Virus record (IMG/VR): IMGVR_UViG_3300048925_000245
Coordinates: 1-43,693 of that record
Length of the DNA stretch: 43,693 nt
Reading direction: 5' to 3' (one strand)
DNA from: a virus
The stretch's first letter is position 1. The number at the start of each line of letters is the position of its first letter. The translations under genes and the position numbers were made by a program. The notes beneath the pieces were generated by a model that did not search any database, was not told the origin of the DNA, and saw only the letters and a list, made by a program, of their open reading frames with translations. Positions 24,274 to 42,451 of the stretch are shown piece by piece.

Positions 24274-24534
24274 TCATTGGCCAGTACCCTGCTCTTTCTC
24301 CCGCCTCAGTAATTCATGATAAGCATGCGTATCACCGCTTTTCGCTTTCCGGTATAAGGCGGCTCTTATCTGTGCCTCTCCCTTTGCCCTGCCTTTGCGT
24401 ATGGCCTCACGGAAACGAGAAATCTCGCTGTGCTGTTTCTTCAGCTCCGGAAGGTTGATATCCAGTACATCGGCAATTTGCTGTTCACTCATCCGGCACG
24501 CGGCGAGTGACTCAACTTCGGCATAAGGGATCAT
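24274..24534 (-). CDS. Small HTH protein (terminase-small-like or regulator)
   Basis: 86 residues, mostly helical. The N-terminal region (EVESLAACRMSEQQIADVLDINLPEL) has a homeodomain-like HTH. The C-terminus (RAKGEAQIRAALYRKAKSGDTHAYHELLRREKE) resembles the phage-type HTH/small-terminase helix pattern. It overlaps the TAGT gene by four bases (ATGA) in the same cassette. A DNA-binding partner of the glycosyltransferase or a second packaging protein are both possible. Confidence 0.6.
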   Translation of the reverse strand: MIPYAEVESLAACRMSEQQIADVLDINLPELKKQHSEISRFREAIRKGRAKGEAQIRAALYRKAKSGDTHAYHELLRREKEQGTGQ

Positions 24535-25397
24535 TTTCCACCCCCGATTTTTTCAGGAGCGGATTTTTTATGTTTCTCGCGGAGGATTTTTACTGCGGCG
24601 TTGTTCCAGCTCACCTGATGATGGATGCGCTTATGGGTTGAGCCCATCAGGGAAATCTTCACGCAGGACGGCGTGAACATCACCGAGTAAAAACTTTTTA
24701 CGTATGTTCCTGATGCCAGATAAAGCTCTGTCATCCCTCCACTGTTGCTTTGCGTCGTTCCCTGTCGCAGCTGTATAGCCCCGACCGTCAGAAACAATTC
24801 ACCGCGCCGCCCGAGTGTCGTGTAAGTATTCACGTCCTCATTGATACGGCCCATAAATTTAAACGGTCTGTCCGTGCTGCATATCAGGCTGTTCATCGCC
24901 TTACGCTTTAGCCAGGCCGCTTTGCCTGAGTCACCGAGGAAGTCGCCCCCCTGGGACATAGCGATACACGCGGCGGGAATTGACTCGTAATAAGCCAGCA
25001 TCGCTTCCAGAACTGCATCCAGATTTTTTATCAGCGCGTATGAAGCATCCAGATTTTTATCAATCCGTAGCTGTAAGGCGCTGTAGTCATCGTCCAGCTC
25101 AATGAAGTATTTGCATCCCACCAGCCGCGCCAGCTCAAAGCATGCGTTGCGGGCGTAAAATATGGAGCGCCGATCCCCGAAGTTATCCGCTTCATCGAAC
25201 CGACTGGCGATATCCTCCTTCGAAAAGATAAGCACCTGATCCCCGAATTTCTCAAGGTACTGCTCCCGGGTTTTATCTTCATCGTCGATAACGATAAAAA
25301 CCTTCCCCGTATAACCTGAACGTTTAAGCAGGTTGTACGTGTAAACTTTTTCCGGCCGTCCGTTGGTCAGGATGAAAGCACAGAAATCTTCACGCAT
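24531..25397 (-). CDS. TAGT-type (TET-associated) DNA-base glycosyltransferase
   Basis: 288 residues. It opens with CAFILTNGRPEKVYTYNLLKRSGY, has VFIVIDDED (33-41), then FIELDDDYSAL (98-108), where the D-D-D is the metal- and sugar-nucleotide-binding DxD of GT-A glycosyltransferases. A second acid motif INEDVNTY lies near 185. This fits the TAGT family that sugars modified bases in phage DNA, reported mostly in phages with TET/JBP oxygenases and often beside ParB-like proteins. No hydroxylase, thymidylate-type synthase or other base-making gene is in the window. The substrate therefore may be a host base or something other than hydroxymethylated cytosine. It overlaps the ParB-like gene by 8 bases. 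Confidence 0.75.
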   Translation of the reverse strand: MREDFCAFILTNGRPEKVYTYNLLKRSGYTGKVFIVIDDEDKTREQYLEKFGDQVLIFSKEDIASRFDEADNFGDRRSIFYARNACFELARLVGCKYFIELDDDYSALQLRIDKNLDASYALIKNLDAVLEAMLAYYESIPAACIAMSQGGDFLGDSGKAAWLKRKAMNSLICSTDRPFKFMGRINEDVNTYTTLGRRGELFLTVGAIQLRQGTTQSNSGGMTELYLASGTYVKSFYSVMFTPSCVKISLMGSTHKRIHHQVSWNNAAVKILREKHKKSAPEKIGGGK

Positions 25398-26175
25398 TTT
25401 CGCCCTCTTCGCTGTACACGATTTCGGCCATTTTTTTAGTCAGGTGAACGAAGCCGTTCTCTATCGCCTTTTCATAGTCGATGATCACCAGTGCAGACTC
25501 TTCAAACAAAGCCTGAACCTCTGCCCCGGCGCTGGCGTAATAATCTGCGATTTTGTTGAAGTTAAAGACCGTATGACGCTCTGCAGCGCTCAACAGGAAC
25601 TTCTCCACATCAGCAGGTAAGCCAGCCTTTTTAATCCGTGACTGTAACTCCTTTGTTTTCTCCTCGTCGTACAGATCCCCGACCTCAGGAACAATGTCTG
25701 ACGGCTCGTAAACAGGTGAGTCAATTTTGGTGGTGTACGGGTCTGCATCGCCCCCTGGCGGCTCGATGGCCACCAGCAGATCGTCAATCTCTTGTTGGGT
25801 GAAGCCCGTCAGGGAAAGATTAAAATCCGCATCCAGCAAATCAGTCACTTCAAGCTTCAGCAGATCATTATCCCAGCCAGCATTTAGCGGCAGTCTGTTA
25901 TCTGCCAGCCGGTAGGCGCGTTTCTGCTCTTCCGTCAGGCCCGTCAGCTTTATCGTCGGTACCGAAACAATGCCGATGGCCTCAGCAGCCAGAACGCGGC
26001 CATGACCAGCGATGATCTCGCCGTTCTCGTCAATCAATACAGGGTTCGTCCAGCCAAATTCCTCGATGCTGGCTACCAACTGCGCTACCTGCTCACCGCT
26101 ATGGGTTCGGGCGTTTCGCGCATATGGCGTTAGTTCCTTTAACGGGCGATATACGATCTTAAGCTTGTCGTTCAT
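25390..26175 (-). CDS. ParB/Srx-domain protein of the TAGT cassette
   Basis: 261 residues from the ATG at 26175 (GGAG four bases upstream); a TTG at 26193 is a weaker start. Residues about 5-80 carry the ParB N-terminal fold: LKELTPYARNARTHS, IEEFGWTNPVLIDENGEIIAGHGRVLAAEAIG, and RAYRLADNRLPLN. This domain is a CTP/ATP-binding or nuclease-like fold. In DNA-modification clusters it accompanies modifying enzymes. Residues 160-261 are helical and acidic. No ParA exists, so partition is unlikely. It leads the TAGT and HTH genes, with overlaps that imply coupled translation. Confidence 0.8.
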   Translation of the reverse strand: MNDKLKIVYRPLKELTPYARNARTHSGEQVAQLVASIEEFGWTNPVLIDENGEIIAGHGRVLAAEAIGIVSVPTIKLTGLTEEQKRAYRLADNRLPLNAGWDNDLLKLEVTDLLDADFNLSLTGFTQQEIDDLLVAIEPPGGDADPYTTKIDSPVYEPSDIVPEVGDLYDEEKTKELQSRIKKAGLPADVEKFLLSAAERHTVFNFNKIADYYASAGAEVQALFEESALVIIDYEKAIENGFVHLTKKMAEIVYSEEGENA

Positions 26176-26198
26176 ATTGCTCCGCTCTGACAAAATGA

Positions 26199-30697: not shown

Positions 30698-30990
30698 GCG
30701 AGAAACTCCCCTTGTAGTTCTCTGTTAACCTGCTCAAGCAGGGATTCTTCACTTCCGTAGTTTTCTTCCCACTTACGTTGTCCTGCGTGGATAGCAACGC
30801 CATAACCTCCGATCCGGTGATGTGGAGGGCATAAAGGGATCGATCGTGTATGCTCTGAGCGCTGCCCTGTACCACAGCCATTTCTCAGGTGATGAATTTC
30901 AGCAGGTGAGTAACCAAAGCCAAGGTTTCGACAAACTACGCAACCCAGGTCCGATACTTTCTGTAGGTGAATTCGGTCGGCCTTTTTCAT
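30694..30990 (-). CDS. Ref-like RecA-dependent HNH nuclease
   Basis: 98 residues: CVVCRNLG (zinc-binding Cys pair), IHHLRNGCGTG, IPLCPPHHRIGGYGVAIHAG and WEENYGSEESLL. These match the P1 Ref-type 'RecA-dependent nuclease' family, whose HNH fold cuts DNA at RecA-bound D-loops and, in P1, is under LexA control. Overlaps: ATGA with Q downstream and four bases with DUF1367 upstream. The LexA box 1 kb upstream fits an SOS link. Confidence 0.85.
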   Translation of the reverse strand: MKKADRIHLQKVSDLGCVVCRNLGFGYSPAEIHHLRNGCGTGQRSEHTRSIPLCPPHHRIGGYGVAIHAGQRKWEENYGSEESLLEQVNRELQGEFLA

Positions 30991-31583
30991 GCAGCGAACT
31001 CCAGCAGCTGCATGGCTACGTTGTCGGCTTCCTGATAGTTGCGGAATTTTTTAAAAAGAATGGTGTTCCACAGGACGTTAAAAACAGCCTTGTAGACCTG
31101 GAAGAATTCAGCTTCTTTCATGTTGGCGAAAGAGATAGATTTTGCTTCGCGGCGGCGGGTGCCATCAGGAAGGATAAACTCATCGTAGAAACCCGCCTCG
31201 ATGATGGCCCACTTTCTGAAGGCCTCGAAGGATTTGGTGATTGCCGCCTCTTTCGTTCGCCATTGCCCGTGAGTTTCGTTGTAGACCTTTTCCGTCTCCG
31301 TCAGAAGATCCTCATTACCGGCCATCGAGATCAGGTATCGCACGTACCCGTGAAGATACTCTTTTTCCGCAGGAGTGATTGCCCCGCCGACTGGTGTCCA
31401 GTATTCGAAGCCAAGATTCAGCAGTGCGAAGAAGCGTTTATGAAAGAGGTAGTTTCGGACAAGCTTAACGTCGCAGTTAAGCCACACGCCGATTTTGATA
31501 CGTTGCAAAAAATCGCTGGCCTCGGGCGTAGCCGTGGTCAGGGTGGTGGGTGAAGATTTAAAGAGTTGTATTACCTGTGCCAT
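30987..31583 (-). CDS. DUF1367 family protein
   Basis: 198 residues from the ATG at 31583 (GGAG near). MAQVIQLFKSSPTTL, IGVWLNCDVKLVRNYLFHKRFFALLNLGFEYW, FRKWAIIEAGFYDEF and FKKFRNYQEADNVAMQLLEF match DUF1367, a nin-region family of unknown role common in lambdoid phages. It leads Ref and Q in one coupled operon. Confidence 0.88.
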   Translation of the reverse strand: MAQVIQLFKSSPTTLTTATPEASDFLQRIKIGVWLNCDVKLVRNYLFHKRFFALLNLGFEYWTPVGGAITPAEKEYLHGYVRYLISMAGNEDLLTETEKVYNETHGQWRTKEAAITKSFEAFRKWAIIEAGFYDEFILPDGTRRREAKSISFANMKEAEFFQVYKAVFNVLWNTILFKKFRNYQEADNVAMQLLEFAA

Positions 31584-31654
31584 CGTTCTCTCCGGTGGCA
31601 CAGTGTTTCAGCAGGGTTGTTCAGACCCGTCAAACATTATAAATCATTGATGTC

Positions 31655-35389: not shown

Positions 35390-35455
35390 TTCAACTTAAC
35401 TTTTTTTAAGCTTCATACTTGTCAATTATCTTTCATTTAGTTAAGTTTACCCCAT
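35390..35455 (+). promoter_or_regulatory. OL/pL-like operator region
   Basis: AACTTAAC at 35393-35400 and GTTAAGTT at 35440-35447 flank TTGTCA (35419-35424). The string CTTTCATTTAGTTAAGTT (35430-35447) is nearly the one on the minus strand of the OR-like site. The repressor should control both, as with lambda OL and OR. A clear -10 is not assigned. Confidence 0.62.
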
Positions 35456-35525
35456 CGAAACACGCACAGTGTTATCAGCAAAACGTTCAGCCAGCCTGGC
35501 TAAAGGGCATCACAGGAGAAATGAC

Positions 35526-35759
35526 ATGAGTGAAAAGAATGAAGCAACCGTATTAATTGCAGGGCACGAGGTTAAAGCCAGCGCGGCCCAAATGGTTGTT
35601 GATCTGGCCATCCCATCCGTCAGGAAGGTGATAGAAGAAATGGTTCTAAAGGGTCGTAGCGTTGAGTCAACCAGTAGCGCAGCAAAAACCGCTGCCGAAG
35701 CAGCGGTGGCGACTATCTTGTGGATGACCAACTGCGGCCCTTGTCACCAGCCCTTATAG
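35526..35759 (+). CDS. First gene of the leftward-type early operon, function unknown
   Basis: 77 residues from the ATG at 35526 (AGGAG upstream). MSEKNEATVLIAGHEVKASA, helical VVDLAIPSVRKVIEEMVLKG, Ala-rich SSAAKTAAEAAVATIL. Its position is that of N or cIII but it resembles neither. The last 16 bases overlap a minus-strand gene. Confidence 0.6.
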   Translation: MSEKNEATVLIAGHEVKASAAQMVVDLAIPSVRKVIEEMVLKGRSVESTSSAAKTAAEAAVATILWMTNCGPCHQPL

Positions 35760-35923
35760 GACATTGGCTTCTCGGGATCAGGTGGGTTTTTCTCTGCAAG
35801 AAGTTCTATAAATCGTGCTTCTGAGCGAATTAGTTTTTGGAGAAATCGGTCTTCTGACATTTTCTCTCCCTGACTTAAAAGATATTGAAACGCCAGCTTT
35901 CTAGCGCAAAGTTTTTCAGACAC
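35744..35923 (-). CDS. 59-residue minus-strand small protein
   Basis: GTG start at 35923 with AGAGG seven bases upstream; one residue short of the usual length cut. It has a second possible start at 35860 (ATG, GGGAGA site). Sequence LCARKLAFQYLLSQGEKMSE and SEARFIELLAEKNPPDP. It runs against the early operon with its end overlapping the previous gene's end. No family recognised. Confidence 0.55.
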   Translation of the reverse strand: MSEKLCARKLAFQYLLSQGEKMSEDRFLQKLIRSEARFIELLAEKNPPDPEKPMSYKGW

Positions 35924-36069
35924 AGATTTTCCTCTTAGGTTGTTGGAATCAAAGAGGATACCACTGCCGCCTGAGGTGGAGAATTAACCAGGCACATATT
36001 CAAAACTGCGTTGCTAAATGATAGCGAAACGGCAATACATAATCAGAATATTCACAGTAGAGGTGAGCG

Positions 36070-36216
36070 GTGAGCAGGAAAGAGTTAGCTGATTTGTTTA
36101 TTTCCCGAACGGGCGAAACATGGGAGATGGCTTACAGGTATCTTCAGGATATCTACTGGAGCTTGTCGACAGCCCTCACCTTCTATCGCGTCGATAAGAA
36201 CGAAGGAAAAATTTAA
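36070..36216 (+). CDS. 48-residue early protein, function unknown
   Basis: GTG start at 36070 with GAGGTGA upstream; the stop at 36214-36216 abuts the next ATG. Residues include ELADLFISRTGETWEMAYRY and QDIYWSLSTAL. Too short for ordinary gene calling. The stretch before it (35924-36069) holds no gene. Confidence 0.55.
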   Translation: MSRKELADLFISRTGETWEMAYRYLQDIYWSLSTALTFYRVDKNEGKI

Positions 36217-36420
36217 ATGGATTTAACACAATTAACGCCAGTTAGCTCAGCACAAAGTAAGTTCGCCATTGCCGCTTTTATTGGTGATAAAGAAATGTTC
36301 GAACAGGCAATTATTCAATTCGCTATTGCAACAGGAACAAAGGTAAATCATGACAACTCTTTATGCATTAGTTTTGACCGTCTTTCTGACTTCAGGGGAG
36401 GCTCAAGAACAGATCATTGA
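36217..36420 (+). CDS. 67-residue early protein, function unknown
   Basis: AAGGA eight bases before the ATG, which directly follows the preceding stop. Helical middle (FAIAAFIGDKEMFEQAIIQFA). Its last 71 bases overlap the DUF1482 gene in another frame, so the C-terminal 23 residues may be weakly constrained. Confidence 0.58.
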   Translation: MDLTQLTPVSSAQSKFAIAAFIGDKEMFEQAIIQFAIATGTKVNHDNSLCISFDRLSDFRGGSRTDH

Positions 36421-36541
36421 TGTTTACGACAATTATTCTGATTGTGTCTCCACTGCAAAAGAGCAGAAATTATCAGGTGAATGTTATCCTGTTGAGGCCA
36501 TTATACCAATGAATCAGAGTGAAGTTCCTGCGGGGTATTAA
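36350..36541 (+). CDS. DUF1482 family small protein
   Basis: 63 residues. MTTLYALVLTVFLTSGEAQ, then IIDVYDNYSDCVSTAKEQK and GECYPVEAIIP with two paired Cys match DUF1482. The N-terminus is a signal-like hydrophobic segment, so it is probably exported or membrane-bound. Common in the pL operons of lambdoid phages; role unknown. Confidence 0.85.
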   Translation: MTTLYALVLTVFLTSGEAQEQIIDVYDNYSDCVSTAKEQKLSGECYPVEAIIPMNQSEVPAGY

Positions 36542-36663
36542 TGGACTGGCAAACAACAAAGATGTTGCTGAAAGCCTTTGCATCACTTGCAGTTATTTTT
36601 TATCTGATTGCTATTTTTGGCTTTCGACTTTTTGCTGAAGACAAAAACGACAGCGGCATTTAG
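36541..36663 (+). CDS. 40-residue single-span membrane protein
   Basis: The ATG shares its first base with the DUF1482 stop (TAATG). Hydrophobic residues about 12-31 (AFASLAVIFYLIAIFGF), with an acidic tail. Not in ordinary gene calls. It is likely translated with DUF1482 and may partner with it. Confidence 0.62.
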   Translation: MDWQTTKMLLKAFASLAVIFYLIAIFGFRLFAEDKNDSGI

Positions 36664-36730
36664 TTAACCACAATCTTTTTATATGCCTGGAAAATGGCAG
36701 GGTTTCCCACACACTTTTTTGGAGTTAAAT

Positions 36731-37078
36731 ATGAACCATGAATTTACCGTAGCATTCAATACTGACCTGTTACTTTCCACTGATGATTGCAAAGTGCTGT
36801 CCTTAACCTGCGGCGATGAACAGCTGGGTTATATCGCGTTCAATACCCTCGACCGTGATTCTGACAAGCGCACCTTCGTTACACCATTCACGGCTGAAGG
36901 CGAACTGAAAGAAACGTGCTGTGCAAGCTGCGCGGCGAAGGCATTATTCCATCATCGCACAGGCTTCAGACTCAAGCTTATATCTATTGCCGAAACTGAA
37001 GACTTAAAACCTTCACTGACTCAGCTTTTGCCCCTGCTACTGCTGGCGGATATTGCCAAGCGAGCCAAAGCGCACTGA
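36731..37078 (+). CDS. 115-residue early protein, Cys-rich centre
   Basis: GGAG six bases before the ATG at 36731; an earlier ATG at 36683 lacks a site. Residues include FNTDLLLSTDDCKVLSLTCG and ETCCASCAAKALFHH (a C-C-x2-C cluster), ending with a Leu-rich helix. Family not recognised; could be a metal-binding or host-takeover protein. Confidence 0.65.
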   Translation: MNHEFTVAFNTDLLLSTDDCKVLSLTCGDEQLGYIAFNTLDRDSDKRTFVTPFTAEGELKETCCASCAAKALFHHRTGFRLKLISIAETEDLKPSLTQLLPLLLLADIAKRAKAH

Positions 37079-37086
37079 TTAATCCC

Positions 37087-37104
37087 GCCCCGTTAAGGCG
37101 GGGC
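37087..37104 (+). terminator. GC-rich hairpin after the 115-residue gene
   Basis: Stem GCCCCG / CGGGGC with loop TTAAGG, followed by ATTTAT. The weak U-tract suggests an attenuator inside the early operon. Confidence 0.55.
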
Positions 37105-37158
37105 ATTTATCCGAGTGACCATTTACAAGTGGTCAGCCTGATAAAAAGAGGAATGCAA

Positions 37159-37422
37159 ATGGATATTACTCTGGCGTTTAAAAAATTAGCCCTCGTTAAC
37201 GGCGAGGAAGCCGTTATCAGCATTGCCCCCAGCGCAATGAAAAAGATGGTCATGAATTTAGTGGCGAATGGTTATTTATCCACTGAGGATTTAATCATTT
37301 TTGCAATCGGTCAGGTGAAAATCTGTGACCGCAAAAACCTTGAGCATGTTTTGCCCGACAACGTTTTAAAGAAATTAACTGAAGTTTTTGAATCCGTAAA
37401 AGAAGGAGAAAACAATGACTGA
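37159..37422 (+). CDS. 87-residue early protein, function unknown
   Basis: Start at 37159 (AGAGG seven bases upstream; upstream ATGs at 37129 and 37153 fit worse). MDITLAFKKLALVNGEEAVIS, then KKMVMNLVANGYLSTEDLI and a helical end. Overlaps the RecE-N fusion by 8 bases. It may act with the recombination genes. Confidence 0.62.
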   Translation: MDITLAFKKLALVNGEEAVISIAPSAMKKMVMNLVANGYLSTEDLIIFAIGQVKICDRKNLEHVLPDNVLKKLTEVFESVKEGENND

Positions 37423-39760
37423 CCAGAAAATTTTCATCGCGGGATATTTCCCAGATGAAGAATCAGAAAAGGCAGGTATTAAGCGTGTCGCTACCGCGTT
37501 CAATGCGAAGGATATTGATCGGGCAAAAGCAAAGGCAAATTTCATCTTTCTGGAAGAGTATGAACCCGCTCAGGATGCGGCGTATAAATTGCTTATTTGT
37601 GAAGATACGCCAGACGTTCCCGCCCGCCCTTCTCGTGGCGTATGGGACACTGAGTTTCTTTATACATACGACTGGCCTGAAGACGTTGGCCACCCTGTAA
37701 AACGCCAGGCTGAGAAAGTCGATTTTGACAAACTCTCTCGCGAATTGCAGATCGCGTGCCTGATTAAATACGGCTCTACCGAGTTAACTAAAAACGATCT
37801 GCCTGGTGCGCTTGAAATTACCCAGGACGATGACAGTTTTGAAGGGCATATTTACGCCGCCATTATCAAAACGCCTTCAGTCGCTAACATGTTCCATGAG
37901 CGTATTGAAAACGCGATCGGCTGGTTAGGTGCTAAGTGCGATCACTCCGCTAAATGGCCTGAGATCCAGAAAGAGCTGGCTGCATGGGAAAAGCGACAGA
38001 ACGCTGAACGCAAACAAACCGGTTCGTCAAAATCAGTTGTCGATATCGCCCGCGAAAGAGCTGCGGCCGAAAAACTAAACCAACAAAATCCGGCTCCAGT
38101 TCACTTGCAGGATGAAGAGTCATTAAAGCGCAACATTGCCCTGGGTCTGGTCGCTAAGGCGATGGATTTCGACATCCTCAACCCTCCGGCGAGCATCGTT
38201 AACCGCGCACGCGAAATTATCAAACTGAAGGAGAAGCCCTTCCCTGCATGGTTAGCGGCAATGAGCGCTACGCTCGGCATTTATGAATACTCCACCGTTC
38301 AGATCATCTACAGCGTGAAAATCTCACCTGAAGATATCGACAAAACCACTGGAGCTATTCAGGGACACATTAACCGCACGTTTACCGAAACGGACCATGC
38401 CAACCCGTCCGCAGAAATGCTGGCCATTGCCTGCGGTACCGTGAAAACCGAAGAGGCTAATAATAATGAGACCAAACAGAACGAAACGGGCGCAAATGGG
38501 CCGCTGGAAACTGCGCCACAGGTAGAGCGTACGGGCCCGTTCTATTACCTCTTTTCAGATGGTGTAAAAGTTGGACGCGCCAACAAGATGCCAGGCCTTG
38601 AAAAAGCGCTGGCTGATGGTGGCAAGGAAATCAGCCAGGAAGAGTATTTAGCCCGTAAGAACGGCACATACGAAGCCCCTGACGCTCCCGCTAATACCTC
38701 AGGCTCGGGTAATGAGCCTGAAGTGACCAATCACGGCGCGGGTCGCTTTTCCATTGATGGATTGCTGGCAGAAAAACCAAAAGAAGACGAGGCAAAAAGT
38801 GAAAATAGTCATGTTGAACAGAAATCAGAGAATGATAACACTGCCGCTGAAAGCGTCCAGGCGGCTATTAATGCCCGCGCAGAAATTGCCGAAGCTGAAT
38901 ACAACGGTTATACGGATAATTCAGACAAAGAAAATCTGTCTATCTGGATGCGGGTGCATAGAACAGACCCCAGTCGGACAAAGAGCAAAATCCAGTACGG
39001 CAAAGAATTGCCTGATGGAACAAAGCCAATACTACGTGTTACTACAAGTATTAACCCGACCTATCAGACAGAACGTGCAACAAAACTCTTCGGACCATTT
39101 GGTATTGGCTGGGGCGTAAATATTGAAATGGAAAGATTTGATAATGGTATGCCATTTACTGAACCGACCTATGATGCCAATGGGCGTTTTACAGGTAAGA
39201 AAGTAATTCGAGATAATGACGGCACCATTATCTTTACGCTTAACCATACAATGTTGATTTCGCTATGGTACATCCACAATGGAGTAAAGGGTGTAATTAG
39301 TAGCTATGGTCACACAAAGTATTTATATCAAACGCTTAACGGTATTACTTGCGATGATGAGTATGCTAAAAAAAGTTTAACCGATGCCACAACGAAAGCA
39401 CTTTCACAGCTTGGGTTTAGTGCTGATGTTTATGGCGGCTTGTTCGAAAATAGTGAATATAGCGAACAAAACAAACTTGAACATGATCTGATTAATGCAA
39501 CGAATAGAGCTGATGAAGTGGTTCGCATACGGGAAGAACTTGATCAACGTTTCAAAGCAAATGTTGAAACGATGAAATCTGCCAAAACCCCTAATGAGGT
39601 TTCAAAGATTGCCAGCAGTCTCACCCGCAAAATTGGAGTGCATTTAAAAGCAGCAAATGCAACGGGTGATCATGATTACGTCAAATACCTTGACGGCCGA
39701 CTGAATCGCCTTGAATCCATAAAAGTTGAATGCCTCAAAGCTCTAGAGGAAAAAGCATGA
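37415..39760 (+). CDS. RecE-N domain fused to a Rad52/ERF-like single-strand annealing domain
   Basis: 781 residues. Residues about 236-345 (NIALGLVAKAMDFDILNPP, FTETDHANPSAEMLAIACG) follow the N-terminal, non-nuclease part of E. coli RecE, including TETDHANP. A low-complexity linker runs to about 490. Residues about 508-690 look like an annealing protein (SSAP): WMRVHRTDPSRTKSKI, ERATKLFGPFGIGWG, DDEYAKKSLTDATTKALSQLGFSADVYGG. RecE's C-terminal exonuclease is absent. The DNA visibly becomes more AT-rich in the second half, suggesting a mosaic join. Likely role: annealing recombination of phage DNA. The next gene is Gp157-like, often beside such annealases. Confidence 0.75.
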   Translation: MTDQKIFIAGYFPDEESEKAGIKRVATAFNAKDIDRAKAKANFIFLEEYEPAQDAAYKLLICEDTPDVPARPSRGVWDTEFLYTYDWPEDVGHPVKRQAEKVDFDKLSRELQIACLIKYGSTELTKNDLPGALEITQDDDSFEGHIYAAIIKTPSVANMFHERIENAIGWLGAKCDHSAKWPEIQKELAAWEKRQNAERKQTGSSKSVVDIARERAAAEKLNQQNPAPVHLQDEESLKRNIALGLVAKAMDFDILNPPASIVNRAREIIKLKEKPFPAWLAAMSATLGIYEYSTVQIIYSVKISPEDIDKTTGAIQGHINRTFTETDHANPSAEMLAIACGTVKTEEANNNETKQNETGANGPLETAPQVERTGPFYYLFSDGVKVGRANKMPGLEKALADGGKEISQEEYLARKNGTYEAPDAPANTSGSGNEPEVTNHGAGRFSIDGLLAEKPKEDEAKSENSHVEQKSENDNTAAESVQAAINARAEIAEAEYNGYTDNSDKENLSIWMRVHRTDPSRTKSKIQYGKELPDGTKPILRVTTSINPTYQTERATKLFGPFGIGWGVNIEMERFDNGMPFTEPTYDANGRFTGKKVIRDNDGTIIFTLNHTMLISLWYIHNGVKGVISSYGHTKYLYQTLNGITCDDEYAKKSLTDATTKALSQLGFSADVYGGLFENSEYSEQNKLEHDLINATNRADEVVRIREELDQRFKANVETMKSAKTPNEVSKIASSLTRKIGVHLKAANATGDHDYVKYLDGRLNRLESIKVECLKALEEKA

Positions 39761-40320
39761 GCAACCGCACTATTGATTTAGCCAACGAAATCAGAAAAAT
39801 TATTGCCCTCGGTGAAAGTGGCGAAATTGACGAGCAGACTATCAAAGATACTTTGGAAGGTATCGAAGGTATGCTGGAAGATAAATTCGATGCTGCAATG
39901 TCTGTTATTAGACAGTTTGAATCAAATAAAGAACATTGCAAAAAAGAGGCTGCCCGCTTTAACGAAAGAGCGAAGCATTGGGATCGCCAGGCTGGAATGA
40001 TAAAAACCTATCTTCTTCTTTGCCTGATTACGGCAGAAAGAAATCAACTTAAAACCGTTGAAAACACATTTTCGGTAAGGAAAGGTAGTATCTCACTCAC
40101 CATCGTAAATGAAGATGATATACCAGACGACTATTTAATTTCTTCTAAATCTGTTGTGGTGAATGAATTTGATACAGCAGGAATAAAAAAGGTTCTTACT
40201 GAAGCTCTAAAAGAGATAGAAGAACTACGTGAAAAAGGTGAGCAGGTTCCTGAAGAACTTCTTAACAAAGTACCTGGCGCAAAAGTAGAGCGTGGACCAG
40301 ATACGCTTTCTGTTCGATGA
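39757..40320 (+). CDS. Gp157-like protein (Siphovirus Gp157 family)
   Basis: 187 residues from the ATG at 39757, coupled as ATGA to the annealase stop. Helical first half (EIDEQTIKDTLEGIEGMLEDK, KEHCKKEAARFNERAKHW), then TFSVRKGSISLTIVNEDDIPDDYL. This is the Sipho_Gp157 pattern, found beside SSAP genes in Gram-positive phages and thought to act in recombination or resistance to other phages. Confidence 0.82.
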   Translation: MSNRTIDLANEIRKIIALGESGEIDEQTIKDTLEGIEGMLEDKFDAAMSVIRQFESNKEHCKKEAARFNERAKHWDRQAGMIKTYLLLCLITAERNQLKTVENTFSVRKGSISLTIVNEDDIPDDYLISSKSVVVNEFDTAGIKKVLTEALKEIEELREKGEQVPEELLNKVPGAKVERGPDTLSVR

Positions 40321-40327
40321 AACACAT

Positions 40328-40342
40328 GGCCGCAAAGCGGCC
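40328..40342 (+). repeat. Perfect hairpin between Gp157-like gene and next small gene
   Basis: GGCCGC-AAA-GCGGCC: a 6-bp stem with three-base loop ahead of CGGGGGC. It could be an attenuator or stability element. Its place argues that the following gene begins at 40359, not 40317. Confidence 0.6.
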
Positions 40343-40358
40343 TGTTTCGGGGGCTTAT

Positions 40359-40523
40359 ATGTTCGTATTCAGAAACGAAATCATCGAAGAGAAAAATGAC
40401 GATTTACGATATCCGCGCATGCAGTCTTTGGGTTCTGCACCTGACTATACAAAGAAAATAGTCGCTGAGTTATCTAAACGTCGAAATCTGAGAAAGAAAA
40501 ATGTTCAACCTAAAACGCGGTAA
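40359..40523 (+). CDS. 54-residue basic early protein, function unknown
   Basis: ATG at 40359 behind a G-rich site; a longer frame from 40317 would run through the hairpin. Sequence MFVFRNEIIEEKNDDLRYPR and a basic tail (SKRRNLRKKNVQPKTR). It overlaps the next small gene. Confidence 0.5.
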   Translation: MFVFRNEIIEEKNDDLRYPRMQSLGSAPDYTKKIVAELSKRRNLRKKNVQPKTR

Positions 40524-40644
40524 GTCAGTGTTTAAAGTTCGCCCTCTCCTGTTTACCAAAAGTTTCAAGTGGGCAAGCGTAAAAGTATTTGATACGCGGC
40601 AAGGCAAATATTACGGGCGTGAGACAGGGAAACGTTATGGGTGA
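40501..40644 (+). CDS. 47-residue basic early protein, function unknown
   Basis: ATG at 40501, stop at 40644; very basic (FNLKRGKSVFKVRPLLFTKS) and not in ordinary gene calls. It overlaps the end of the 54-residue gene and the start of the next gene by a few bases, the packing typical of real pL-operon genes. No clear site upstream. Confidence 0.45.
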   Translation: MFNLKRGKSVFKVRPLLFTKSFKWASVKVFDTRQGKYYGRETGKRYG

Positions 40645-40909
40645 TATGGGCGATTATTTCCGCGACATTGCACCCTATCTCAAAGAGCGTAGAAAAAAGG
40701 CCCGTGATGGAGCGCATCAAAGAATCAAGAGTTTCTTCGTGCGTAATGGCGTTGTTTTTGAAGAGGGCAATAACACCCTCCTTTTCAGAACTCCGGCTGG
40801 AACAGTGTGCTATTACACTCCGAGCCAGAAGATGCGGCATAAAAACCAGTGGACACAGTGCAGCCCTACCAAATGCATGAATCACGTGAAAAAGCTTAGA
40901 GGTAATTAA
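40637..40909 (+). CDS. 90-residue early protein, function unknown
   Basis: ATG at 40637 (AGGGA six bases upstream). MGDMGDYFRDIAPYLKERRK, VRNGVVFEEGNNTLLFRTPAG, a Cys/His-rich end (TQCSPTKCMNHVKK). Small proteins with this opening are common in enterobacterial lambdoid phages but of unknown role. The next gene's ATG follows by two bases. Confidence 0.68.
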   Translation: MGDMGDYFRDIAPYLKERRKKARDGAHQRIKSFFVRNGVVFEEGNNTLLFRTPAGTVCYYTPSQKMRHKNQWTQCSPTKCMNHVKKLRGN

Positions 40910-40910
40910 G

Positions 40911-41738
40911 ATGGCTAACTCATTCAAGCAAATGTTTAAAGACGGCGTAATAAAGCGCCCTGACGGTCGGATGTTAATTCGTCTTGATGATATTCACATC
41001 ATCGAGGGATTCAACCCACGTGATTACAACTCGGAAAAGTGCAAAGAAGCTGATGAAAGCCTTTACCAGCATCTGATGGCTGGCGGCTCTATTCCCCCGC
41101 TTGAGGTTAAGGCGCTCGATAGCGGCGGCGTCTGGATTGTTGAAGGTCATCGACGTTACCGCATGTTTCTGCGTTGCCGTGAAGCAGGCCAGCCTGTTGA
41201 GTGGATTAGCATCGTTCAGTTCAAGGGCAGCGATATTGATGCCCAGGCGCATGTGATCAAATCCTGCAATCAGCTTGCGCTTAGCCCTATGGAAAAAGCA
41301 CGAAACATAAAGCGCATGGAGGCCTTCAACCTCACGGTTAGCGAGATTGCCGTTTACGTTGGGCTTTCAGTTCCGACTGTCGAAAAGCTAATGGCCCTGA
41401 ATGATGCTGACCATGCAGTTCAAAAGAGCGTAGAGAATAACGAAGTATCTCTCGACGTTGCGCTAAGCCGAGTTGATGAGTATGGAAGCCGCGCCGCAGA
41501 GGTTCTGGAAAAGGATAAAGCGGTAGCCGCTGCTGCCGGCAAGAAGAAAGTCACCCGAAGTGTCATTGCCCCTGAAATCAGCGTGAAGAAAGCCCGCCGC
41601 CTGGTTGAGCTTATCACCCTTGCAGGAATCGACGAGAGCGGCGCTATTACGCTTTCTGGCGAGTTATTGAATGAGGTTGTGGAAATCATCAAAGAACAGC
41701 GCGATATCGAAGCACAGCGCAGCAGGAGCGCAGTATGA
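40911..41738 (+). CDS. ParB/KorB-like DNA-binding protein without ParA
   Basis: 275 residues. ParB N-terminal domain (about 22-105: RLDDIHIIEGFNPRDYNSEK, IPPLEVKALDSGGVWIVEGHRRYRMFLRC) with the G-H-R-R motif, followed by a KorB-like HTH (about 120-160: LSPMEKARNIKRMEAFNLTVSEIAVYVGLSVPTVEKLMAL). No ParA or parS is visible, so plasmid-like partition is unlikely. A regulator, nucleoid-like or replication-linked function is more plausible. This is the second ParB-fold protein in the window. Confidence 0.85.
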   Translation: MANSFKQMFKDGVIKRPDGRMLIRLDDIHIIEGFNPRDYNSEKCKEADESLYQHLMAGGSIPPLEVKALDSGGVWIVEGHRRYRMFLRCREAGQPVEWISIVQFKGSDIDAQAHVIKSCNQLALSPMEKARNIKRMEAFNLTVSEIAVYVGLSVPTVEKLMALNDADHAVQKSVENNEVSLDVALSRVDEYGSRAAEVLEKDKAVAAAAGKKKVTRSVIAPEISVKKARRLVELITLAGIDESGAITLSGELLNEVVEIIKEQRDIEAQRSRSAV

Positions 41739-42100
41739 ACAAGGTAAAGAAAGAACGTTTAGTTAATTATCGCCGCTGGCTTTATCAAGCAGAACTGAAC
41801 GAAACAAAACTGGTCGCTTATAACTGCCCTAAATGCCTTGAGAAGTTACAAACCACTGAAGCGCCGGAAGGTGAAACGTGGGACACGTTTTCTAACTGCC
41901 CTTTTTGCGGGTCGTTACTTTCTAAGGTAACGCAAGGTTTCAATGTCAAAATTGAATTAATTCTGAAAATTGGGAAAAAAGAACCTGCGGAACAAACTGA
42001 AGCTGATCATCCAGAGATTCCCCCGGCATCTTGCCCTCGTTGTGGGACGATATCAGACAGACCAGACGGCGTGCATTATTGCCACTCAAGAAATAAGTGA
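41735..42100 (+). CDS. Double zinc-ribbon protein
   Basis: 121 residues. Two pairs of Cys knuckles: CPKCLEKL...CPFCG (about 31-61) and CPRCG near 103 with Cys/His near the end (HYCHSRNK). Likely binds DNA, RNA or a host protein. It overlaps the ParB-like gene by four bases (ATGA). Confidence 0.7.
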   Translation: MNKVKKERLVNYRRWLYQAELNETKLVAYNCPKCLEKLQTTEAPEGETWDTFSNCPFCGSLLSKVTQGFNVKIELILKIGKKEPAEQTEADHPEIPPASCPRCGTISDRPDGVHYCHSRNK

Positions 42101-42163
42101 TTCTCGTAATTCAGTTTTGATACCCGACCAGCGTTAACTTGCTGGTCGGTCATGGGGTAACAA

Positions 42164-42451
42164 ATGCTTTTGACACTCAAAGAGTGGGCGTGCGATGTCT
42201 ATCAAGATCCGCCGTCTATTGGAACTTTGCAACGCTGGGCGAGGAACGGGAATATTTACCCACCTCCAGAAAAACATGGGCGTGAATATAAAGTTCAACA
42301 TGATGCTTTTTATATCAAACCGAATAAAGCGTGTAGCAAAATCCAACATCAAAACCCAAATGGCCGAACTGGTAAAAAAAGCAGCTTACTGGAGAGGATT
42401 GAACATGAGCAGGAAATACAATCGCGATCTACCGCGAAATCTAACTTATAG
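42164..42451 (+). CDS. xis: Excisionase Xis
   Basis: 95 residues. MLLTLKEWACDVYQ, TLQRWARNGNIYPPPEKHGREYKV match lambda/HK022 Xis (W and PPP-x-K-x-G-R-E-Y wing). It bends attachment DNA to favour excision. The end overlaps integrase by 47 bases, as in lambda. Confidence 0.9.
   Translation: MLLTLKEWACDVYQDPPSIGTLQRWARNGNIYPPPEKHGREYKVQHDAFYIKPNKACSKIQHQNPNGRTGKKSSLLERIEHEQEIQSRSTAKSNL

Follow-up and report, generated by a model that had tools for sequence, protein, structure and literature searches.

What does the front half of RecE do when the domain behind it is not an exonuclease? The question is raised by a single uninterrupted open reading frame of 781 codons (781 aa), positions 37415–39760 (+), in the IMG/VR virus record IMGVR_UViG_3300048925_000245. 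The record was analyzed over its full 43,693 nt (43.7 kb) and is referred to here as the window. The gene fuses a RecE-type N-terminal region, called the chassis below, to a predicted Rad52/Sak-type annealase. The same front half is found on other, unlike C-terminal domains, and the view that the RecE N-terminal region (RecE-N) is a chassis independent of its effector is well supported. That the product is a modular phage recombination protein, with the chassis positioning the annealase, is given an even chance of being correct; recruitment is the best guess for the putative role of the chassis.

Residues 231–341 share 36% identity with positions 258–368 of Escherichia coli K-12 RecE (111 residues, E-value = 8e-19), and the similarity of the fusion protein to K-12 RecE is confined to this module. 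TETDHANP and IACG, the motifs by which an earlier note on this DNA recognized a RecE-N pattern in the first half, are both situated inside it. Positions 236–384 of the NCBIfam ExoVIII model match residues 186–346 (E-value = 1.3e-20), a match that falls short of the whole-protein cut-off of the model. The similarity to the "ExoVIII" of phage PhiR42_1 is longer than that to K-12 RecE and covers residues 5–436 (37% identity, E-value = 2e-72). The Pfam Exonuc_VIII N-terminal domain, PF06630, matches K-12 RecE but not the window protein, and a RecE-type first module was seen in only one of 128 fused loci (L076).

An AlphaFold2 monomer model of residues 1–425, made with 63 sequences, has a pLDDT of 86 and displays four predicted modules. 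Module A is compact alpha/beta (residues 1–95, nt 37415–37699, pLDDT 85–96 in blocks of ten) and module B is helical (residues 100–203, nt 37712–38023); profile matches accompany both. Module C, also helical, spans residues 232–342 in the model and carries the RecE core homology (residues 231–341, nt 38105–38437). A low-confidence stretch at 345–368 separates it from module D, a small domain with the sequence GPFYYL...ARKNG (residues 374–417, nt 38534–38665), which is common to DEDD-type proteins of E. coli phages. Next is a linker motif, HGAGRFSIDGL (residues 440–450, nt 38732–38764), common to annealase, PD-(D/E)XK and DEDD versions of the protein. All of these lie on the + strand.

The C-terminal half contains a predicted annealase core (residues 505–675, nt 38927–39439) and a long helical tail (residues 676–781, nt 39440–39757). 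The AlphaFold2 model of residues 505–781, built with the 84 sequences of family A3, has a pLDDT of 91. When aligned by VIA-align, human RAD52 came out on top with seven rows (Z 10.2–11.0, 135–169 residues, rmsd 3.9–9.4), with yeast Mgm101 at up to Z 9.8 and Sak of phage 80alpha at up to Z 8.3. Pfam PF04098 (Rad52_Rad22) matches 48 of the 84 family members at E ≤ 1; the best of these, L137, has an E-value of 2.2e-7 and lies above the gathering score. A PDB sequence search with the whole protein gave nothing, and the family profile gave only chance-level matches. The annealase fold of residues 505–675 is a confident and well supported prediction, backed by the Pfam matches of relatives. The earlier note had placed a Rad52-like annealing domain here in place of the nuclease, a view borne out by the model and by the finding of no nuclease family match to this half in Pfam. 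The regions it gave for both folds stand, with the boundaries refined to 231–341 for RecE and to a core at about 505–675 plus the tail at 676–781.

Residues 507–727 are 37% identical to F116p19. According to PMC5743808, F116p19 is "Rec6", listed as Sak in Table 1, and its recombineering activity in Pseudomonas putida is comparable to that of Ssr. The discussion there once names Rec6 Sak4; Table 1 and the sequence are followed here, and it is taken as Sak. The same source reports that Sak from P. putida CSV86 (Rec5) is also active, at about 1e-4, and that the assay of these stand-alone relatives was oligonucleotide recombineering. L131, from the P. bharatica CSV86 genome, shows 44% identity to F116p19 and is probably Rec5, judging by strain and length only.

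Base composition shifts at the join, as the earlier note had said: the G+C content is 47–52% in the front modules vs. 40–41% in the annealase part. A contrast as large occurs at 19 of 842 positions along the window, so that the shift is unusual, not unique. A chimeric contig as the source of the fusion was considered and is rejected, since more than 100 distinct fused proteins are present in many records.

Recurrence was examined with the annealase domain as query against viral contigs (best 80 of at least 590) and genomes (best 80 of 106). This search alone yielded 115 fused loci, which encode 107 distinct proteins, and RecE module C is present in 106 of the 107. As the set was gathered with the annealase domain alone, the presence of module C is not by construction, and the pairing of RecE-N with an annealase, which the earlier note suggested looking for in other proteins, is a recurrent one. 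Counting all searches there are 130 fused loci, some on contigs fetched twice, with 112 distinct proteins. Fused forms are found in Serratia, Yersinia, Pantoea, Rahnella, Xenorhabdus, Photorhabdus, Proteus, Providencia and other Enterobacterales; Pectobacterium phage ZF40 gp07 and a Stenotrophomonas phage BUCT708 protein carry the same fusion. The annealase-domain search also gave 44 stand-alone loci, mostly Pseudomonas, some of which are split genes.

The front half as query (best 80 of at least 516 matches) gave 71 loci that could be classed: 42 with a PD-(D/E)XK nuclease, 13 with a DEDD Rv2179c-like domain, 10 Rad52-like and 6 with none of these. The other nine carry an open reading frame that is split or runs off the contig end. 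Classes were assigned by phmmer similarity to the C-termini of K-12 RecE and PhiR42_1; all four PD-(D/E)XK proteins examined with Pfam contain DUF3799, and PF16473 was confirmed in L240 and L228. Phages PhiR42_1 (by Pfam) and Tritos (by similarity) bring the DEDD examples to 15. Two E. coli phage genes for "exonuclease VIII", L171:3995–6463 (PF16473 by Pfam) and L172:2995–5466 (by similarity), have a DEDD Rv2179c-like domain and not the RecE nuclease.

Module C accompanies all of these endings: it was found in 127 of 128 fused loci, counted without L003 (annotated as a frameshifted pseudogene), L010, L011 and L012, and in the 42 PD-(D/E)XK, 15 DEDD and 6 other loci gathered with chassis queries. 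The profile of module A matches 125 of the 128 fused loci, 2 of 15 DEDD, 1 of 42 PD-(D/E)XK and 2 of 6 other loci. Module B is present in 118 of 128 fused loci, and module D in 32 of 128 fused, 2 of 15 DEDD and 1 of 42 PD-(D/E)XK loci. Among the loci with none of the three domains, L232 and L233 show a short tail and then a Gam-Bet-Exo block, which in L232 consists by Pfam of Gam, RecT-family and YqaJ genes. These chassis proteins without a nuclease are at L232:2210–6313 and L233:4434–8261, directly before the lambda-type block. A short tail of this kind is also seen by eye in L183 and L184, and the genes of L197 and L201 are possibly interrupted.

Two short motifs in the linker also recur across the classes. 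GxGxFSIDGL is present in 78 of 128 fused, 12 of 42 PD-(D/E)XK and 3 of 15 DEDD loci. The motif RGEYVEGISDPNDPKW is present in 9 of 128 fused, 40 of 42 PD-(D/E)XK, 13 of 15 DEDD and 3 of 6 other loci. In a profile search with the linker motifs, the significant matches outside the classed proteins were partial or split chassis open reading frames. Chassis and motifs are thus found on three unlike domains.

Close relatives differ by module swaps inside the gene. L007 is nearly the same as the window protein in modules A (92% identity), B (94%) and D (94%), the linker (90%), the annealase core (99%) and the tail (97%), but its module C is only 21% identical and a short linker 74%. In L032, modules A–D are at 72–93% identity but the annealase core is at 48%, the tail at 58% and the preceding linker at 36%.

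The fusion gene is overlapped at its 3′ end by a gene of the Sipho_Gp157 family (39730–40320, +; Pfam E-value = 5.5e-25). Counted with a single phmmer query, which may miss divergent members, a Gp157 gene lies downstream in 129 of 130 fused loci and after 111 of 112 distinct fused genes; the exceptional locus has too little DNA downstream. Such shortage also affects 2 of 46 stand-alone, 2 of 42 PD-(D/E)XK, 1 of 15 DEDD and 1 of 7 other loci. With enough DNA, the gene follows 36 of 44 stand-alone loci (37 without that exclusion) and none of 40 PD-(D/E)XK, 14 DEDD or 6 other chassis loci. In Firmicutes phages, Gp157-like, DUF1351 and Mu-Gam-like genes are alternative upstream neighbors of Erf and Sak4 annealases, and analogous functions are suggested for them in PMC8093625. 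This pattern fits a helper role for Gp157.

Nuclease, RecT and NinB genes were looked for in 32 hand-picked annealase-fused phage records, the window included, which may be incomplete, and in a few positives. YqaJ (lambda-Exo-like) and DUF3799 (PF12684, RecE-like) were found by Pfam in none of the 32, with positives L212 and L179 matching DUF3799; RecT (PF03837) was also found in none, with three added chassis positives matching. The exonuclease kinds covered were YqaJ, DUF3799 and Rv2179c-like, others not exhaustively. No exonuclease PHROG label was seen among 40 scanned window open reading frames (some shorter ones were left unscanned), apart from the fusion itself. The statement of the earlier note that no separate exonuclease is visible therefore holds within this range, and the annealase form probably uses single strands made by the host or exposed at forks. 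RecT-family genes follow the PD-(D/E)XK form in all three loci checked by Pfam, which detected them where K-12 RecT as a phmmer query did not. Of the relatives with a stand-alone annealase domain, one (L161) immediately precedes a YqaJ exonuclease gene, and another (L168) has an SSB gene in its vicinity.

A putative NinB/Orf-like recombination mediator, by PHROG label only, is situated at 30987–31601 (−) in the window (phrog_319, E-value = 2.1e-58; no match to Pfam NinB). This label was found in 39 of 42 records, comprising 32 of 32 annealase-fused, 7 of 8 PD-(D/E)XK and 0 of 2 DEDD. Pfam NinB (PF05772) matches none of the 42, so the phrog_319 name may be loose. Upstream, a 97 aa open reading frame (37129–37422, +) overlaps the start of the fusion gene and has no Pfam or PHROG match; relatives lie upstream of 34 of 125 fused genes and none were found in the other classes. 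Relatives of a 63 aa open reading frame (36350–36541, +) occur upstream of chassis genes in all C-terminal classes, at 24 of 123 fused, 16 of 40 PD-(D/E)XK, 11 of 13 DEDD and 4 of 6 other loci, and near 1 of 45 stand-alone loci, a distribution too patchy for it to be claimed as a chassis partner.

In the proposed mechanism, a Rad52-like ring or filament would bind single strands coming from host exonucleases or replication forks. Modules A–D and the short docking motif in the linker would hold the annealase at its site of action, which could be DNA ends, SSB-coated forks, or a phage or host factor, and Gp157 and the Orf-like mediator may help loading. Recruitment as the task of the chassis, the partner recruited, a reliance on host nucleases and the parts played by Gp157 and Orf are inferences. 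A wider form of the proposal is put forward tentatively: RecE-N may use GxGxFSIDGL or RGEYVEGISDPNDPKW to dock at one common site whatever it carries, be it a 5′–3′ nuclease, a DEDD exonuclease, an annealase or no such domain, and exonuclease VIII would be one variant of a family with swappable effectors. The suggestion of the earlier note that RecE-N is a shared recruiting module is upheld as to sharing, which extends to a DEDD exonuclease and a form without a nuclease. RecT, one partner it had named, is unlikely for the annealase form because no RecT was found in the 32 records.

Several points weigh against these proposals. The chassis is dispensable for oligonucleotide recombineering, since the stand-alone relatives work without it. 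Its presence in the PD-(D/E)XK, DEDD and "none" sets is by construction, because these were gathered by chassis queries, and the proportions among the locus classes are not representative, because the best 80 per query were used. Only two linker motifs were seen, and neither occurs in every protein (78 of the 128 fused loci have GxGxFSIDGL and 9 have ISDPND). The front-half model has no clear PDB match (best E 0.77, best Z 4.7), in a search whose rows covered well only residues 102–203 and barely probed modules A, C and D. As for the annealase, the window protein itself gives no PF04098 match, RAD52 is absent from the 50 best rows of Foldseek against the PDB, the RAD52 match comes from VIA-align at rmsd 3.9–9.4, and CorA chains score up to Z 9.3 on the helical tail alone. 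A separate Rv2179c-like exonuclease is present in one of the 32 fused-phage records, and one weak match lies below the cut-off.

The swapping of modules between close relatives and the existence of several module variants would also suit a chassis that is a counter-defense or decoy module, with the enzyme behind it incidental and the shuffling a reflection of an arms race. The position of the L232 and L233 proteins, which have no nuclease, directly before a Gam-Bet-Exo block is in keeping with this. However, no known inhibitor family match was found in Pfam or PHROGs, and the repeated fusion to recombination and exonuclease domains, together with the conserved linker motifs, fits docking better; counter-defense is considered unlikely. 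Equally unlikely is that the N-terminal region serves for self-assembly or end tethering, joining two protein-bound DNA ends and recruiting no outside partner. Any protein that acts on DNA ends could make use of this, and in PMC4381043 and PMC4877586 linear-linear recombination has full-length RecE with RecT as its reference, but a peptide-binding partner is what the short motifs in the linker point to.

That mosaic recombination has spread the front half as a passive passenger, with no role in the work of the annealase, is quite improbable. There are 46 stand-alone loci in all, and F116p19 functions without a chassis (PMC5743808). But five of the 46 have a separate, split-off chassis open reading frame in the same locus, 35 of the 42 from genomes are in records not titled Enterobacterales (mostly Pseudomonas), and four of the seven Enterobacterales ones have a chassis open reading frame alongside; the retention of module C in all but one of the distinct fused proteins, over many Enterobacterales genera, also argues for a role. 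Last, the reading of the C-terminal domain as an exonuclease, after the names of phrog_2489 and phrog_7838, several GenBank records and the RefSeq name of F116p19, is extremely improbable given the predicted Rad52 fold, the Pfam Rad52 matches of relatives, the lack of a nuclease family match and the recombinase activity of F116p19 (PMC5743808).

The exonuclease label seems to have passed to this domain from the RecE portion of the fusions. RefSeq calls F116p19 (L253:13847–14602, −) "exonuclease", though it was tested as an active recombinase in PMC5743808, and this label may come from fused relatives. The label on a family of annealases (PHROGs, ZF40 gp07, F116p19) is thereby called into question.

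Other open reading frames of the window carry PHROG labels for tail sheath, baseplate, head, terminase, integrase, O-like replication, DnaC-like and Q-like proteins, and the window thus looks like a temperate myovirus. Beyond the Gp157 gene are a ParB-like gene and an integrase. No DNA nearly identical to window positions 35400–42200 was found in E. coli genomes. An open reading frame at 24531–25397 (−) matches phrog_842, named beta-glucosyl-HMC-alpha-glucosyltransferase (E-value = 4.3e-85), and is adjoined by a ParB-like nuclease/methyltransferase-like open reading frame at 25390–26193.

Within the literature searched, from which subscription papers were mostly absent, no paper was found on RecE-N fused to a Rad52-like domain, nor a mechanism for the front half of RecE; one study uses only a C-terminal RecE fragment from residue 588 (PMC3945230). 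That unlike domains bear this front half, with short motifs conserved, uncouples its role from nuclease activity. This gives a handle on what the poorly understood N-terminal part of RecE does and makes the role of the chassis directly testable by swaps. The fused annealases possibly offer a built-in positioning module for recombineering.

Compared with known systems, the fusion is unlike the SynExo pairs (Red, RecET) in that neither YqaJ nor DUF3799 accompanies it in the fused-phage records. It shares with E. coli RecE (exonuclease VIII of the Rac prophage) module C and a long front of several modules before a C-terminal enzyme, and some annealase-fused relatives share the alternative linker motif ISDPND. 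RecE, however, starts with PF06630, ends with a PD-(D/E)XK nuclease (DUF3799) and has recT adjoining, whereas the fusion has a Rad52-like domain, another N-terminal module, a Gp157 neighbor and no RecT found. The "ExoVIII" proteins of E. coli phages PhiR42_1 and Tritos resemble it throughout the front half, module D included, but have a DEDD Rv2179c-like C-terminus, and excisionase and integrase genes come next. With the phage Sak annealases (F116p19 and Sak of P. putida CSV86, and by fold Sak of 80alpha) it shares the annealase domain and predicted Rad52 fold, and many stand-alone relatives also have the Gp157 neighbor, but F116p19 and its Pseudomonas relatives are about 245 aa and are without the RecE-N chassis. 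ZF40 gp07, annotated as a putative exonuclease, and the BUCT708 protein, annotated as hypothetical, are fused in the same way. Their front modules have diverged, but both have a chassis-like front and the same annealase domain, and in BUCT708 the gene that follows carries a Gp157 family annotation.

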